A stretch of 64,000 nucleotides of DNA from NCBI GenBank assembly GCA_024280835.1, contig JAJRPJ010000006.1, forward strand, positions 275,656-339,655, read 5' to 3'. A model generated the notes under the pieces. It worked only from the letters and a program-made list of their open reading frames with translations. It was not told where the DNA came from and made no database searches. Shown here one piece after another: positions 3,948 to 11,127 of the stretch (positions within the stretch are counted from its first letter, which is position 1; every line of letters starts with the position of its first letter). The position numbers were made by a program, and so were the translations under genes. This DNA is from Candidatus Zixiibacteriota bacterium. Lineage in GTDB: Bacteria > Zixibacteria > MSB-5A5 > GN15 > JACZUZ01.

Positions 3948-6626
3948 ATGCGTTCTATTAATCATACTAATGTATTGCTTGCTATTTTTGGCGTAGTAGC
4001 GCTGGCATTGGTTTCGCTTGCGTCACCCGTATCGAGCCGGCCACACTTCACATCGATGGATGGAATCAATCATCAATTCTACGGAACAACCTCCTCAGGT
4101 GATGCTGTTTCAGATGGTCAACACACACTCGAATTTTCAATTTGGGATGATGAAGTCGTAGGGTTACAGCTCTGGAGTGAGGTGCAAACTGTTGTTACAT
4201 CAAACGGCCTTGGCTCTGTTCATCTCGGTACTGTCACACCAATACCGCTGGATGTTTTCGGCACAAGGAGCTCGGACACGCTTAAGTCCTACTTTCTTGC
4301 CGTAACTCTAGACGGCGAAGTTATCACACCTCGTGTTCGCTTTATTCCTGTGCCTTATGCGCATGTCGCCGAACGTATACTAGGTGATGTCCTAACTGGT
4401 CCAGGCCAATTGGTTCTTTCTCAAACTTCGCTCTTGGGACAAGGAAGTGATTACGCAGTGACTGCGTCTGTTGACCCACCAATGGTGTCCGATACTTTTG
4501 TTGTTTCGGATCCTGGAGTGGGAATTCTCAAGGGTGGTTTTCATGCTGCAGATATTGATAGCGCCTATAGTGGGATTTTTTCGATAGAAGGTGGAAACAA
4601 TACTCGTGTACATATGAGAGTATCAAATAGCGGTGCAACGCATTCAGTTTCAAATTTAGGTTCATCTGGGGAAGATGGTGTGCGCACCACAGCCAGTAGC
4701 GGAACGATTCAGACTGAGATGGTCAGTCTAAGTTTGACTGGTAATACTTCAACGGTGTTGATGGGTACGTCTACATCTACGGAAAACGGAGAACTTGTGG
4801 TTTCGAATCTTGGCTCATCTGGACAAGATGGTGTTCGCACTACTGCGAGTAATGGAACAGTTCAAACCGAAATGGTGAGCCTGAGCTTAACAGGAAATTC
4901 ATCAACCATAAACCTTGAAACATCAACGTCAACCCAAAGAGCGCAACTCAAAGTATCCAATCTTGGTTCTTCTGGTGAAGACGGAGTTAGTATCGATGCC
5001 GGAACAGGAACAGTGGAAGTCAAACTCGGGATTGAACATGAGGACATTGGCGCTCGGCTTGTCGCCTCAGATGATGGAACAGGAGCTGGATTGATAGTAA
5101 TAGACACAGGGTTGAATGACAGTGGTCTAATAGATTTGAGAACCAGCATCGCAGGCGGCGGACGCTTAAGAATATCAAACCTCGGTTCATCAGGCGAAGA
5201 TGGAGTTTCAATAGTTGTTGGTCCACCTGGCCCCGGACTCGCACCAGGTTCTAGCCTTCGAATTGGCGGCTTGTCTCTACAGGGTAGAGGTATCCTTCAG
5301 GCATCAGGATCGGATTCATCGACACTTGATGTGTTCCATGACGGAGGCGGAGGTGGTGGCGGAGGTGGTGGTCGAATTCGTGTTAGAGCGAACGTTACAG
5401 GTGGGCATTTAAGTGTTTCCAATATTGGCTCCTCAGGCGATGATGGAGTTTCGATTGATGTAGGAGATGGTACGGCCGATCTTATGATGCGTAGCCCAGC
5501 AGCTCGGCTAGCCCTCAAAGACCTGTCGACAGGGCAAACTGTCGAAACTGAGATTCTCTCAATGAGTCTCTCTTCAGCCGAGCCGCTAATCTCCATTACT
5601 GAACGTGATGCAGCGCCTACAGATCTTCCGATCTTGCGTTTCGAATATGACGCTAATGGTCGAGTAGTTTCTAATTACAGATCAACTACAAGCGCTCCAG
5701 GTGATTCAGCAGAATTGCATTCATCGAGACTAACTTTCTATGACGGTCTTAGTAGAGTTATAGTGGAGGCCGATAATGGCGGCAAGGTAGCTTTGAAAAA
5801 ACTTCAAAGTGGTCAAACAGTCTCAACAGAGATTGTTTCAATGAGTCTGGTAAGTTCTGAGCCACTAATTTCGTTGAGACTCCCAGATGCGCTACCTACT
5901 GACTTACCACTGGTTGAATACGTCTATGATGCACTCGATACGCGAATCATTGAAACTAGACGGTCAGCCGCGGGAGAGCCCGGTGATTCAACTCAACAGT
6001 CATCTACTGGGCTAAGAATTTTTAGTGGCAATGATGATTTCCTGTATGACTTAGGTGGCATCCAATTCTCCGATGCCAGTGGGACAGCGTTTTCAGTGTC
6101 ACCGGGTGGCGATATGCAATTGCGTCAGAATGGTCTATTTGCAACTGACCTAGGTACTGGCGTTGGTGTCGGTGGCACATTCCCTGGAGTTAAGCTGTTT
6201 GTTGATGGTGATATATGCGCGACGGGAATCATTGGTCCATGCTCAGATATTCGTTACAAAAAGAACATTGAAACTATTGAAGATCCGATTGAGAAAATCT
6301 CAAAACTTCGAGGTGTGGCTTTCGATTGGAAGAGAGATGAATTCGCCGAGCGGAATTTCTCCGATGACCGTCAGCTAGGGTTGATTGCTCAAGAGGTCAG
6401 AGAGGTTTTGCCTGAAGTGGTCGGTCAAGGTGATGACGGATACTATTTCGTTGACTATAGTCGACTGACGCCTGTGTTGATAGAAGCAGTCAAAAAGCAA
6501 CAGGCAGAAATAGTTACTCAGAACACTCAGATACAGTCACTACAAAAACAAATTGATGAACTGAAGGGTATTGTCAATAAGTTTGTTATGGTGAAACAGG
6601 CAGATAAGACTCTTTCGATGAAATAG
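3948..6626 (+). CDS. Large secreted surface protein with C-terminal S74 (endosialidase-type) intramolecular chaperone
   Basis: 892 residues, with signal peptide at 1-30 and start supported by AAAGGGAGCTGTTATG. Residues about 35-145 resemble the beta domain common at the N-terminus of such bacterial proteins (HTLEFSIWDDE, LWSEVQTV, PVPYAHVAE). The middle has five copies of SNLGSSGxDGV and a second repeat pair (QTVxTEIxSMSL followed by EPLIS and PTDLP). A run of ten glycines lies near residues 465-475. The C-terminus is peptidase S74: SDIRYKKNIE with the Ser766/Lys771 dyad, LGLIAQEVREVLPEVV and a final coiled coil. In phage tail spikes this domain drives trimer folding and then cuts itself off before the Ser. 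I infer a trimeric beta-rich surface fibre; the ligand is unknown. Confidence 0.85.
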   Translation: MRSINHTNVLLAIFGVVALALVSLASPVSSRPHFTSMDGINHQFYGTTSSGDAVSDGQHTLEFSIWDDEVVGLQLWSEVQTVVTSNGLGSVHLGTVTPIPLDVFGTRSSDTLKSYFLAVTLDGEVITPRVRFIPVPYAHVAERILGDVLTGPGQLVLSQTSLLGQGSDYAVTASVDPPMVSDTFVVSDPGVGILKGGFHAADIDSAYSGIFSIEGGNNTRVHMRVSNSGATHSVSNLGSSGEDGVRTTASSGTIQTEMVSLSLTGNTSTVLMGTSTSTENGELVVSNLGSSGQDGVRTTASNGTVQTEMVSLSLTGNSSTINLETSTSTQRAQLKVSNLGSSGEDGVSIDAGTGTVEVKLGIEHEDIGARLVASDDGTGAGLIVIDTGLNDSGLIDLRTSIAGGGRLRISNLGSSGEDGVSIVVGPPGPGLAPGSSLRIGGLSLQGRGILQASGSDSSTLDVFHDGGGGGGGGGGRIRVRANVTGGHLSVSNIGSSGDDGVSIDVGDGTADLMMRSPAARLALKDLSTGQTVETEILSMSLSSAEPLISITERDAAPTDLPILRFEYDANGRVVSNYRSTTSAPGDSAELHSSRLTFYDGLSRVIVEADNGGKVALKKLQSGQTVSTEIVSMSLVSSEPLISLRLPDALPTDLPLVEYVYDALDTRIIETRRSAAGEPGDSTQQSSTGLRIFSGNDDFLYDLGGIQFSDASGTAFSVSPGGDMQLRQNGLFATDLGTGVGVGGTFPGVKLFVDGDICATGIIGPCSDIRYKKNIETIEDPIEKISKLRGVAFDWKRDEFAERNFSDDRQLGLIAQEVREVLPEVVGQGDDGYYFVDYSRLTPVLIEAVKKQQAEIVTQNTQIQSLQKQIDELKGIVNKFVMVKQADKTLSMK

Positions 6627-6770
6627 CGCTGGCGAAAGAACGCCGATGGATTTGTCTGTCTCATCTCGATTGGACTGCAACTCATGGGTTTAGCATGTTA
6701 GTGTATTGGTGTAGCTGCGCATAAAACTTGGACATTTGTTCGCATATTTGTTAGAGTTGGAAAATATCTG

Positions 6771-6799
6771 TTGACACAACTATTGTTGTAACGTATATT
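6771..6799 (+). promoter_or_regulatory. Promoter of the MarR gene with embedded operator
   Basis: TTGACA (6771-6776), a 17-nt spacer and TATATT (6794-6799). Within the spacer lies the dyad ACAAC-TATT-GTTGT (6776-6789). The sequence ATTGTTGTAAC recurs as ATTGTTGTGAC before the pirin gene, which points to autoregulation by the MarR protein. Confidence 0.7.
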
Positions 6800-6817
6800 C
6801 CAGCGCGAGGAGATGAA

Positions 6818-7261
6818 GTGAATAGAAAGCAGAATACACAAACCAAGGGACTCGCCAGGCAAGGAATAACAACTCTATTCAGAGTCAGGGAGCAGGTTTA
6901 TGGTGGACTTAATGAAGTTCTCAAGCCCTTTGGCCTGACCGAGCCCAAATATAATGTGCTAAGGATTCTTGGTGGGATAGGAAATGAAGGTCTCCCAACT
7001 TTAGAAATTGGGAGCCGGATGATAACGCGAATTCCCGATGTGACTCGGTTGATAGATCGACTCAAGGCCGACGGGCTGGTCGCTCGTGAGAGATGTCCTG
7101 TAGACCGGCGAATTGTGCGAGCAAAGTTGACTACTAAAGGTAAGAAGATTTTGCAGAAGTTGGATGGGCCAATCAATAAATTTCAATTGAAATACATGTC
7201 TTTTCTTACTGACAAAGAGCTCAATTCTCTAATTATGATTCTAGCGAAGTTTCCAAAGTAG
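6818..7261 (+). CDS. MarR-family transcriptional regulator
   Basis: 147-residue winged-helix repressor of the MarR family; members bind short dyads as dimers and release DNA on binding phenolic ligands or on oxidation. Visible features are an N-terminal dimer helix, a recognition region around TLEIGSRMITRIPDVTRLIDRLKADGLV and the wing ERCPVDRRIVRAKLTTKGK. The only Cys lies in the wing. Start is GTG at 6818 after GCGAGGAG; an ATG at 6813 is out of frame. It sits under its own promoter and operator and 89 nt before the pirin gene, whose upstream region carries a related dyad. Control of the pirin gene, and perhaps the channel gene after it, is inference from the shared site. Confidence 0.9.
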   Translation: MNRKQNTQTKGLARQGITTLFRVREQVYGGLNEVLKPFGLTEPKYNVLRILGGIGNEGLPTLEIGSRMITRIPDVTRLIDRLKADGLVARERCPVDRRIVRAKLTTKGKKILQKLDGPINKFQLKYMSFLTDKELNSLIMILAKFPK

Positions 7262-7303
7262 AGCAGATATTTATGGTTCCTGATTGTGAAAGCCTTTGTG
7301 ATA

Positions 7304-7320
7304 ATTGTTGTGACAACAAT
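7304..7320 (+). promoter_or_regulatory. Operator-like inverted repeat before the pirin gene
   Basis: ATTGTTG-TGA-CAACAAT is a perfect 7-bp dyad 30 nt before the pirin start codon. It shares ATTGTTGTxAC with the site inside the marR promoter. Confidence 0.65.
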
Positions 7321-7350: not shown

Positions 7351-8049
7351 ATGATTACTATCAGACGCGCAAATGAACGAGGCCATGCTGAACATGGTTG
7401 GTTGAATACCTATCATACTTTTTCATTTAATACGTACTACGATGAAAACCATATGGGTTTTCGAGCTTTACGTGTGCTCAATGATGACAGAGTGCAACCA
7501 GGGCGAGGGTTCGGCAGTCATCCACATCAGGATATGGAAATAATCACCTATGTCCTTGAAGGAGCTCTTGAACACAAAGATAGCATGGGGCACGGTTCGG
7601 TTATCCATTCAGGGGATGTGCAGATAATGTCCGCTGGCAAAGGAGTGGTGCATAGCGAGAAAAACGCTTCGCCAAGAGAGGCAGTTCATTTCCTGCAAAT
7701 ATGGATAGTTCCTGATGAAAAAGGAGCCGAGCCAAGCTATGCTCAAATCAGGTTTAGCCGTGCAGATAAGCTCGGCAAGCTCTGTCCAATTGCTTCCAAG
7801 AATGGTTTGGATGGGTCGGCTAGTATTCGTCAGGACGTCAATGTATATGCGACAATTCTTGAACAGAACATATCGCTTACTGTGCCTGTCATCTCTGGTA
7901 GGCACCTTTGGATCCATGTCGCACAGGGCGAGGCGCAGTTTGGCAACAGTATTCTGTTGGCCGGCGATGGCCTAGCGGTGAGTGGCGAGACAGAAGTTCA
8001 ATTGACTGGTATCGATGATGCGGAGATATTAGTTTTTGATTTGGCATAG
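7351..8049 (+). CDS. Pirin family protein (YhhW/quercetinase-like bicupin)
   Basis: 232-residue cytosolic bicupin of the short bacterial pirin type. The N-terminal cupin has all four metal ligands: His57 and His59 in GSHPHQDME, and His101 and Glu103 in GVVHSEKN. The C-terminal cupin lacks ligands, as is normal. Some family members oxidise flavonols such as quercetin; others respond to oxidative stress. The start has a clear AGGAGG at 7341-7346. It follows the MarR gene and an operator-like dyad, so induction by a phenolic or redox signal is a reasonable inference. The natural substrate cannot be read from sequence. Confidence 0.92.
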   Translation: MITIRRANERGHAEHGWLNTYHTFSFNTYYDENHMGFRALRVLNDDRVQPGRGFGSHPHQDMEIITYVLEGALEHKDSMGHGSVIHSGDVQIMSAGKGVVHSEKNASPREAVHFLQIWIVPDEKGAEPSYAQIRFSRADKLGKLCPIASKNGLDGSASIRQDVNVYATILEQNISLTVPVISGRHLWIHVAQGEAQFGNSILLAGDGLAVSGETEVQLTGIDDAEILVFDLA

Positions 8050-8112
8050 AACCGAACAAGTGGGGCTGGGTGAGATAGTAGTGCGACATGCATTCATATA
8101 GAGGAAACGAAA

Positions 8113-8697
8113 ATGACTTCAGTCAGACTTGAAGCTTTCAGTGACGCTGTCATCGCGATAGCGATAACAATCATGGTTCTTGAAATAAAAGTTCCTCATG
8201 GAACCGATTGGGGTGTGCTGCGTTCATTGTTGCCTGTGTTCCTTTCGTATTTGATGAGCTTCGTGTATCTAGGAATATATTGGAATAACCATCATCACAT
8301 GTTGCACACTACCGAGCGAGTAAACGGACGTGTGCTATGGGCTAATTTGCATTTGTTGTTCTGGCTTTCTCTGATTCCGTTTGTCACAGGTTGGATGGGA
8401 GAAAACAATTTTGCGCCGTTACCTGCGGCCCTATATGGCGTGACGCTATTGATGTCTTCGATTGCGTATAGCATTCTCCAGTCGACAATAATTCGATTGG
8501 ATGGTGGTAGCTCCAGTCTCCGAAAGGCCATAGGGAGAGACTGGAAAGGTAAGTCATCAATCGCTCTGTACGCAATCGCGATTGGGTTTGCGTTTGTCAA
8601 TCACTGGATAGCTGTCGGTATTTATGTTCTAGTGGCGCTGCTATGGATTGTCCCAGACAAAAGGATAGAATCCATCGAGCGCACAGACGAGACTTGA
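8113..8697 (+). CDS. TMEM175-family potassium channel-like membrane protein (DUF1211)
   Basis: 194-residue integral membrane protein with about six hydrophobic segments. The first carries the family signature RLEAFSDAVIAIAITIMVLE (FSDAV motif), which lines the pore of bacterial TMEM175 potassium channels. The paired HH in YWNNHHHML is also typical. Bacterial members have one six-helix unit and assemble as tetramers. Start is preceded by GAGGAAACGAAA. The gene lies 63 nt after pirin in the same direction and may be co-transcribed. Ion selectivity is known only from the family. Confidence 0.88.
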   Translation: MTSVRLEAFSDAVIAIAITIMVLEIKVPHGTDWGVLRSLLPVFLSYLMSFVYLGIYWNNHHHMLHTTERVNGRVLWANLHLLFWLSLIPFVTGWMGENNFAPLPAALYGVTLLMSSIAYSILQSTIIRLDGGSSSLRKAIGRDWKGKSSIALYAIAIGFAFVNHWIAVGIYVLVALLWIVPDKRIESIERTDET

Positions 8698-9105
8698 ACG
8701 ATCGGCTATTCAGCCAATTGCTCCAGTTTGGAATTCAACCTGTCTGTCAATCGCTCACAAAACCTCATGCATGAATAACCGCTTGCTGTGGTTTCGTAAA
8801 CAAAATCAGTTCTGTTGTCTAGACAGAAAGTTAGAAACTGGTCGAGCAATATTCTAAGTGAAACGTTTCACAATGAACATTTCATAGCGTTTCATGCCTT
8901 GGGCTAACTTGGTCCATCAATATAGTTCTGCCACTTCAAAGTAACTTTATTCAAATAACTACCGATGAAATAACATGGATATTCAATCCTGCTAGAGAAA
9001 ATATTACTGGCGCTTTTTGAGTTGAGTGACGGGGAACCAAGTGCAGGGATGTGAGATTTGTGGCCTAGCCACAAATCCAGAATCGCGCTTATTAGAGGAA
9101 TGTTC
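8698..9105. other. 408-nt intergenic region with a perfect palindrome
   Basis: No gene seen. GTGAAACGTTTCAC at 8858-8871 is a perfect 14-bp palindrome. Half-like copies (GAACATTTCAT, GCGTTTCATG) follow within 40 nt. It could be an operator for the downstream kinase gene, but no clear promoter boxes surround it. Confidence 0.45.
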
Positions 9106-11127
9106 ATGTTGTGTGACAACAAGAAAACCAAGCAACAACTAATCGAAGAGCTAGTCGCGCTACGCCGTCGAGTTAGTGGAATCTCTGAAGATAATAAAGA
9201 CAAGTGCAGTCTGTCTGATTTTGAAATGGACTCTTGGTCACTTCTGCAAAACGCACCTTTTGTGGCTATCAAGTGGAATCTCGACTTTGAAGTTGTTGAA
9301 TGGAACTTGGCGGCAGAGAGCGTTTTTGGTTATACCAAAAGTGAGGCCTTGGGAAGACATGCCGTCGGTCTGATAGTACCAGAGTCAGTCAGAGAGCAAG
9401 TCAATAAGATTTGGGATGACCTGCTCAAAAACTCAGGCGGATTCTTTAGCAGGAACGAGAACTCTACTAAGGATGGTCGTAAAGTTATTTGCGATTGGAG
9501 CAACACAACTCTCGTGGACAAGTCCGGTAAAGTTATTGGAGTAGTTTCACTCGTACATGACATCACCGATACTACAAAAACTCAAGAGGCGCTCATTGAG
9601 AGCGAGAACAAGTACCGAACCCTCTTTGAGAAATCCGCTGATGCGATTCTCATCATTGAGGGGGACCAGTTTGTTGATTGCAATTCTGCAACAGTCGCAA
9701 TGCTTGGCTACGAGAGCAGGGAAGAATTGTTGGAGACTCACCCATCTGAGTTATCACCCGAAAAACAGCCCGATGGACAAAGCTCATTCGAAAAAGCCAA
9801 TGAATTCATGTCAATCGCGTTTAGTCGTGGTAGTCATCGCTTTGAATGGGAGCATGTCAAACATGACGGGACAGTTTTCCCTGTTGAAGTTCTTCTGACA
9901 GCGGTGCCTTCTCATGGGAAGAATTTTCTCCATGTCGTCTGGAGAGACATCACCGAACGCAAGCGGCTTGAGGGGCTAGAGTCACGCGCCGCTCGGCTTG
10001 ATACCGCAGGAACAATCGCTGGACAGGTTGCGCATGACTTCAACAATCTGTTGGGACCCTTGGTTGCCTACCCAGATTTGATTCGCATGAAACTTCCTAA
10101 AGATCATCCGACATTGAAGTATTTAGCCAGAATTGAAAGTTCTGCCAAGAAAATTGCGGACATCAATCAGCAACTTCTGAGTCTAGGGAGACGTGGGCAT
10201 TACAATATGGAAGTGTTTGATTTGAATGATGTTGTCCAGCAAGCCATAAATGGGATGCCGCCTCTTGCTGATAACATCACTTGTTCGACAGAACTACAAG
10301 CAGATATTATGAAAACCTTGGGAGGTAGTTCTCAGGTTCATCGCGTAATTACAAATCTACTTTGTAACGCTGTTGATGCGTTACATGTCGGTGGTAGTAT
10401 TAGAGTCAGGACCGAGAATTATTATGCTGACGAAGTATCGGGTGTCTATGGCCGGGTCCCCAAAGGTGAATATGTCAAGCTCACAGTTTCCGACACAGGC
10501 TGCGGTATCTCAGATGAGATAGTCCAAAAGATTCTTGATCCGTTCTTTACTACCAAAGCTAGCGACAAAGTTCGTGGTTCTGGCTTGGGGCTTAGTGTTG
10601 TCGATGCAGTTCTCAAGGATCACGGTGGGTATTTGGATTTAGTGACTAAGGTTGGTGAGGGAGCTTCGTTCTATCTCTATTTCCCTGTCACTCGCAACAA
10701 GTTGATTACCGATAGCACAGAAAAAATTATTGGCGGTAATGAGTCAGTATTGGTGATTGATGATGATGAGATGCAAAGGGATGTATCCACCAATCTACTA
10801 CGTGGGCTTGGATACCGAGTCAGTGTAGCCGAGAGCGGTGAATCGGCGCTTGAGTTTCTAAAAGAGAATCCTCACGACCTACTGGTTTTGGATATGGTCA
10901 TGCCACCTGGAATTGATGGAACAGAAACATATCGGAGAATTCTCGAATTCTATCCAAATCAAAAAGCGATTTTGGCTTCAGGGTTTTCTGAATCAGACAG
11001 AGTTAGCGAAGCCCAAGCTCTGGGCGCTGGCGCCTTTGTCAAGAAGCCCTTGACCAGAAGGGCCCTCGCCGCTGCCGTCAGGCGAGAATTGGACAGGCGT
11101 GTTGAGCAAGAAGCAACCGCACATTAA
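9106..11127 (+). CDS. Hybrid sensor histidine kinase/response regulator (PAS-PAS-HisKA-HATPase-REC)
   Basis: 673-residue soluble hybrid kinase. Order: short coiled coil (LIEELVALRRRV), PAS (residues about 45-160), PAS (about 170-295, YRTLFEKSADAI), HisKA with phospho-acceptor His310 in VAHDFNNLL, HATPase with N-box NLLCNAVDAL, G1 DTGCGI and G2 GSGLGLSVV, then a receiver with DDDE acidic pocket, phospho-Asp596 in LVLDMVMP and conserved Lys in VKKPL. The open frame extends to a TTG at 9058, but GAGGAA sits well before the ATG at 9106, which I chose. It has no membrane segment, so the PAS domains sense a cytosolic signal. No DNA-binding partner is adjacent. Confidence 0.92.
   Translation: MLCDNKKTKQQLIEELVALRRRVSGISEDNKDKCSLSDFEMDSWSLLQNAPFVAIKWNLDFEVVEWNLAAESVFGYTKSEALGRHAVGLIVPESVREQVNKIWDDLLKNSGGFFSRNENSTKDGRKVICDWSNTTLVDKSGKVIGVVSLVHDITDTTKTQEALIESENKYRTLFEKSADAILIIEGDQFVDCNSATVAMLGYESREELLETHPSELSPEKQPDGQSSFEKANEFMSIAFSRGSHRFEWEHVKHDGTVFPVEVLLTAVPSHGKNFLHVVWRDITERKRLEGLESRAARLDTAGTIAGQVAHDFNNLLGPLVAYPDLIRMKLPKDHPTLKYLARIESSAKKIADINQQLLSLGRRGHYNMEVFDLNDVVQQAINGMPPLADNITCSTELQADIMKTLGGSSQVHRVITNLLCNAVDALHVGGSIRVRTENYYADEVSGVYGRVPKGEYVKLTVSDTGCGISDEIVQKILDPFFTTKASDKVRGSGLGLSVVDAVLKDHGGYLDLVTKVGEGASFYLYFPVTRNKLITDSTEKIIGGNESVLVIDDDEMQRDVSTNLLRGLGYRVSVAESGESALEFLKENPHDLLVLDMVMPPGIDGTETYRRILEFYPNQKAILASGFSESDRVSEAQALGAGAFVKKPLTRRALAAAVRRELDRRVEQEATAH

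Follow-up and report, generated by a model that had tools for sequence, protein, structure and literature searches.

Closest described systems

MarR proteins usually bind palindromes of 16-20 bp, as stated in the available part of a review of the family. MarR, SlyA, HpaR and MexR are autorepressors, and the MarR protein considered here has in common with them a winged helix, a palindrome over its own promoter and the probable control of a neighbouring gene. Its predicted operator, TYGTT-NN-AACRA, differs from the operators of MarR, SlyA, HpaR and MexR. MhqR, a quinone-sensing MarR-type repressor of Staphylococcus aureus, represses its own operon, mhqRED, a layout like the one here going by the accessible description of that system. 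YetL of Bacillus subtilis, a flavonoid-responsive repressor, would suit a quercetinase-type pirin, a likeness drawn from the title of its report and not from sequence; it differs in its divergent arrangement with yetM, as far as the available text describes it. MgxR, a regulator adjoining yceI, was considered and discarded, as the operator given in the accessible part of its report is unrelated to the 20-bp dyad described below (PMC4349456). Pirin-like genes of Streptomyces are treated without a link to MarR in the available portion of the corresponding paper (PMC13118837). No report of the 20-bp operator or of a MarR repressor of pirin was found in the accessible text of the open-access literature, subscription papers being outside this scope. 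By sequence profile only, the closest solved structure is PDB 3u2r, "Regulatory protein MarR": chain 3u2r_A is matched by the profile of A1, the alignment of the MarR protein, with an E-value of 8.8e-43 over positions 5-152.

The marR-pirin locus

The locus lies in a 64-kb stretch of DNA from a Candidatus Zixiibacteriota bacterium, analysed as a whole and called the window here; the operators, the promoters and the marR, pirin and TMEM175-like genes given below are on its forward strand. The marR gene (6818-7261, GTG start) encodes a 147-aa MarR-family repressor with a MarR-type winged helix-turn-helix domain (PF01047, E 5e-10; 39.6 bits against a cut-off of 24.6). All 13 NCBIfam equivalog families listed for it score below their cut-offs, including HpaR, the best of them (TIGR02337, 48.5 vs 121.2), and SlyA (44.8 vs 120). 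The invariant columns of A1 include no cysteine, which makes a conserved thiol switch improbable.

After a gap of 89 bp follows pirin (7351-8049, with its ATG at 7351), a bicupin with a quercetinase-type C-terminal domain. Both the Pirin N-domain (PF02678, E 1.1e-35, 122.3 bits) and the C-terminal cupin (PF17954, E 2.3e-23, 82.6 bits) are recognised, and PF02678 is matched once in the whole genome, by this gene. The protein sequence shows an HPH motif and, further on, an H-S-E motif; these are presumably metal ligands, and quercetin 2,3-dioxygenase activity is putative. The next gene encodes a TMEM175-like channel (8113-8697; PF06736, E 2.4e-33). Directly upstream of marR, positions 3948-6626 encode a repetitive 892-aa protein with a C-terminal Peptidase_S74 intramolecular chaperone domain (PF13884), and downstream of the channel gene, positions 9058-11127 encode a hybrid sensor kinase containing HATPase, receiver and two PAS domains.

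Predicted operators in the window

Across related MarR loci of other genomes, the operator has a common form, the 20-bp dyad ATA-N-TYGTT-NN-AACRA-N-TAT. A symmetric weight matrix was built from 21 hand-picked training sites, all from other genomes and none from the window. Acidobacterial loci among them (L075 to L091) had been selected for matching the pattern, so the independent tests of the matrix are G021, G087, G088 and the plasmid loci. Within the window, the matrix ranks positions 6764, 7301, 6779 and 7304 highest (19.0, 15.0, 14.4 and 13.5), followed by 6247 inside the upstream gene (11.9) and then by a score of 6.0; random sequence of equal dinucleotide make-up gives such scores 0.3 to 1.7 times per Mb. 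At up to three mismatches the dyad matches six places in the window against 0.98 expected, a number reached in 0 of 100 shuffles, and four of the six fall in the marR and pirin promoters. The sites are imperfect, with 2-3 mismatches and scores of 13.5-19.0, where the training sites range from 17.5 to 28.9.

The marR promoter is of the sigma-70 type (6771-6799), with TTGACA at 6771-6776, a 17-nt spacer and TATATT at 6794-6799, matching 11 of 12 consensus positions. Two candidate operators lie head to tail across it, their centres at 6773.5 and 6788.5. P1a (ATATCTGTTGACACAACTAT, 6764-6783) covers the -35 element, has two mismatches to ATANTYGTTNNAACRANTAT and is the top-scoring site of the window. 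P1b (ACTATTGTTGTAACGTATAT, 6779-6798), which ranks third, occupies the spacer and covers the -10 element, its centre 15 bp from that of P1a; its position relative to TTGACA is that of the sites in acidobacterial marR promoters. A palindromic operator in the gene's own promoter is characteristic of the MarR family, and P1a and P1b, conserved in orthologues, are predicted to be such operators. The first-pass annotation had drawn the dyad ACAAC-TATT-GTTGT as an operator inside this promoter. The dyad is indeed there, at 6776-6789, but it joins the right half of P1a to the left half of P1b: the 20-mer centred on it scores -53.5, where the real sites reach 13.5 to 19.0. It is thus the junction of two tandem operators and not an operator itself.

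Tandem pairs at 15-bp spacing are also present in G021 (20.6 and 14.6) and on the pirin side of L076 (14.7 and 13.5), and a weak one in G088 (27.1 and 3.5). In many acidobacterial promoters the -35 hexamer itself contributes part of the signal at -15, so the pairing is firm for the window, G021 and L076 only. Such an arrangement suggests that two dimers may bind side by side. The 15-bp distance between operator centres is seen in more than one promoter: at 6764-6798 of the window, in L045 and in L076.

On the pirin side, the annotated dyad ATTGTTG-TGA-CAACAAT is a perfect 17-bp palindrome (7304-7320) that ends 30 nt before the pirin ATG, and the string ATTGTTGTxAC that it was said to share with the marR dyad is real. 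It is centred on the single base 7312, its arms 3 bp wider apart than those of the conserved dyad, and read in the conserved spacing it amounts to two overlapping imperfect sites. The candidate operator P2 (7301-7323) accordingly fits the 20-bp form at 7301 and at 7304, with two and three mismatches, the second and fourth matrix scores of the window. A possible extended -10 element, TGtGATAAT, read from the sequence at 7297-7305, overlaps P2; a promoter scanner calls no promoter there. In relatives, -10-like hexamers stand at the same edge of the second site, as in G087 (TAGACA-16-TATACT), L042, L043 and L044.

The first-pass annotation had extended the regulon, tentatively, to the TMEM175-like gene. 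Direct control finds no support: the 63-bp gap before that gene (8050-8112) contains no operator (best site score -8.7), and a TMEM175 match adjoins pirin in none of the related loci fetched. At most, the gene may be co-transcribed with pirin by read-through.

The motif in the genome

Genome-wide scanning had been proposed as a check. In the window, 10 places match the literal motif TTGTTGTNACAAC at up to two mismatches where 7.4 are expected, which is not significant, and its exact match there is at the pirin site only. TTGTTGTNACAACA occurs at nine distinct places in the genome at up to one mismatch and exactly only at the pirin site. The conserved register stands out in the window, as given above, and does not in the whole genome at three mismatches, where 75 places compare with 85 in a backward control. 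As the literal motif is weak in both window and genome, the conclusion had to rest on comparison with relatives.

At up to two mismatches the dyad is found at seven places in the genome, two of them in the marR-pirin locus. Outside it, four places (L052, L053, L054 and L057) reach 14.1-17.9, comparable to P1b and P2. These were rejected as further regulon members for want of a convincing promoter site (C12:438994 was left out of this assessment): three are within a reading frame or at its beginning, and only L053 is between genes, in a 44-bp gap. CTGTTGTGACAACA, a near match to the literal motif between groES and groEL (G000:C13:304976; L032 2477-2490), was taken as chance. The two YceI genes of this genome have no good site nearby (best scores 8.2 in the L111 stretch and 2.7 in L110). 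The motif alone is not unique in its own genome, and context is needed. Because other places score alike and three mismatches give no excess, the window sites are best read as degenerate members of the class, whose assignment rests on place and conservation.

Conservation across phyla

No match at E <= 0.001 is found in the same-genus genome G001. In the phylum as a whole, 6 of 132 genomes, the window's included, have a match at 1e-20, and in four of these the gene adjoins pirin: the window's, G021, G087 and G088. The latter three loci were found by protein and their sites examined afterwards. G087 and G088 carry the dyad before both marR and pirin with 0-1 mismatches, and these are the top two matrix places. 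In G021 the top two places are a pair of dyads at marR whose centres are separated by 15 bp; the pirin site ranks third and is weak (5.2). L049, L050 and L051, MarR-type loci with no adjoining pirin, have no dyad at up to one mismatch in the marR promoter.

Five acidobacterial homologues with 38-47% identity were recovered from the genome collection. In all five, the marR promoter has TTGACA and, in the spacer after it, a CGTT/TGTT-NN-AAC dyad. The second site in Acidobacteriota precedes yceI or pirin: in L041-L044 the gap between marR and yceI contains a second copy, and pirin comes after yceI, while marR and yceI overlap in L040, leaving no gap for one. In the phylum of G135, 61 of 297 genomes have a homologue at 1e-25. 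Among the 30 loci listed for that phylum (L074, the same locus as L044, is counted within them), the dyad occurs at up to three mismatches upstream of marR in nine, downstream in seven and on both sides in five; many of the remaining loci have other dyads with the same 5-2-5 spacing. L095 has a 1-mismatch operator at position 660, about 230 bp before yceI, which in this locus precedes the MarR homologue instead of following it as usual.

Whole-genome scans of eight relatives (3-11 Mb) at up to two mismatches return 2-4 places each. Both of two places are in the locus in G132, G134 and G087, and two of three in G133, G135 and G088; G136 has one of two in the locus, and G021 one of four. In six of the eight, therefore, two genome places are the marR site and the next-gene site. 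The second place in G136, L067, was set aside; an oxidoreductase-like reading frame has its 5' end there.

On Deinococcus plasmids, MarR homologues precede doxX and VOC genes. Three of the five loci fetched (L104, L106 and L108) carry the dyad upstream of marR (0-2 mismatches) and again upstream of doxX (1-2 mismatches); the other two (L105 and L107), which adjoin VOC genes, have GTGTT-NN-AACAC-like sites. Gemmatirosa locus L109 has a site with two mismatches before marR and a poor second site (four mismatches). Conservation upstream of orthologues, offered in the first-pass annotation as a way of checking the sites, thus extends from G087, G088 and G021, with its weak pirin site, to Acidobacteriota and Deinococcus plasmids.

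Recognition helix and operator class

Recognition helices and operators were compared at 47 loci, with L074 left out. With helix TR-PD, 13 of 15 marR promoters, that of the window among them, carry TYGTTNNAACRA at up to one mismatch and 0 of 15 carry TTGACNNGTCAA. With helix PG the corresponding figures are 1 of 10 and 8 of 10, and with helix RR-PD, GTGTTNNAACAC is found in two of three. In background windows at the same tolerance the three patterns occur in 28, 6 and 9 of 2061, respectively. The 19 rows with other or unread helices are mixed. On a tree in which class labels were assigned by hand and 10 of the 47 rows have no operator class, the three operator classes need two changes; as the classes sit in few clades, the counts are not independent. 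Helix and operator class change together, as would be expected if MarR reads its site.

A sister group with helix PG (L087, L088, L093, L098, L099 and L101) has TTGAC-NN-GTCAA-like dyads in the marR promoter, and a yceI match adjoins marR in all six loci.

Proposed mechanism and alternatives

The proposal that one MarR protein regulates both itself and pirin is supported by the comparison, as the operator is conserved in orthologous loci of several phyla, both at marR and ahead of the gene that follows it, and, by the helix comparison, operator class and recognition helix change jointly. MarR very probably controls both genes through one conserved site type. A MarR dimer would bind the 20-bp dyad and repress. 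Two tandem copies covering the -35, spacer and -10 of the marR promoter would exclude RNA polymerase, while the third site, overlapping the probable extended -10, would repress a second, predicted promoter before pirin. A small ligand would release MarR so that marR and pirin are induced together, with TMEM175 following by read-through only. The ligand would most likely be aromatic, quinone-like or flavonoid-like. The neighbouring genes, for pirin, YceI, DoxX and VOC proteins, suggest a detoxifying role against aromatic or quinone-like compounds, by analogy with known MarR systems such as MhqR. This explanation as a whole, a ligand-released autorepressor with tandem operators at its own promoter and a third at pirin, is held with high confidence.

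Part of the scheme might be built differently: the marR promoter might be the only one serving pirin, and P2 an auxiliary site or a road-block. The short marR-pirin gap and the silence of the promoter scanner at P2 speak for such a variant, yet the -10-like hexamer overlapping the second site in the window (GATAAT, with TG upstream), G087, L042, L043 and L044 makes it rather doubtful. The operators could also be real but read by another regulator, such as a global MarR-type protein, with this MarR a mere neighbour. Dyads of the general MarR form are common, as this would have it; its improbability follows from the six of eight relatives in which the pattern occurs 2-3 times per genome with two occurrences at the MarR locus, and from the change of operator class with the recognition helix of that very protein.

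That the sites are chance inverted repeats in AT-rich intergenic DNA is very improbable. The literal motif count in the window is no higher than chance and other places in the genome score alike, as this reading would have it, but the sites are the top four of 64 kb under an independent matrix and stand at equal positions in orthologous loci of several phyla. Hardly credible is a role of the pirin-side palindrome as RNA, in an attenuator or stability hairpin: the palindrome is perfect over 17 bp, and transcription from the marR promoter probably does run through it, but the 89-nt gap folds no better than shuffles (z 0.06), and in relatives the pirin-side site matches the promoter-side operator. 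Operator-based repression by the adjoining MarR is the preferred reading.

Significance

The regulation is of an ordinary kind, in an uncharacterised MarR subfamily. On balance, the subfamily is probably widespread and has a fixed layout, a tandem-prone marR operator with a copy at the next gene, whose targets (pirin, yceI, doxX with VOC) are exchanged between phyla and in which a few helix residues (TR-PD, PG, RR-PD) set three 5-2-5 operator types. For this subfamily, the operator would then be defined, the predicted regulon minimal and the specificity code open to test. Bacterial proteins of poorly understood role (pirin, YceI, DoxX/VOC) would also be tied to a single type of signal. What deserves specialist attention is a layout that stays fixed while its targets are exchanged.
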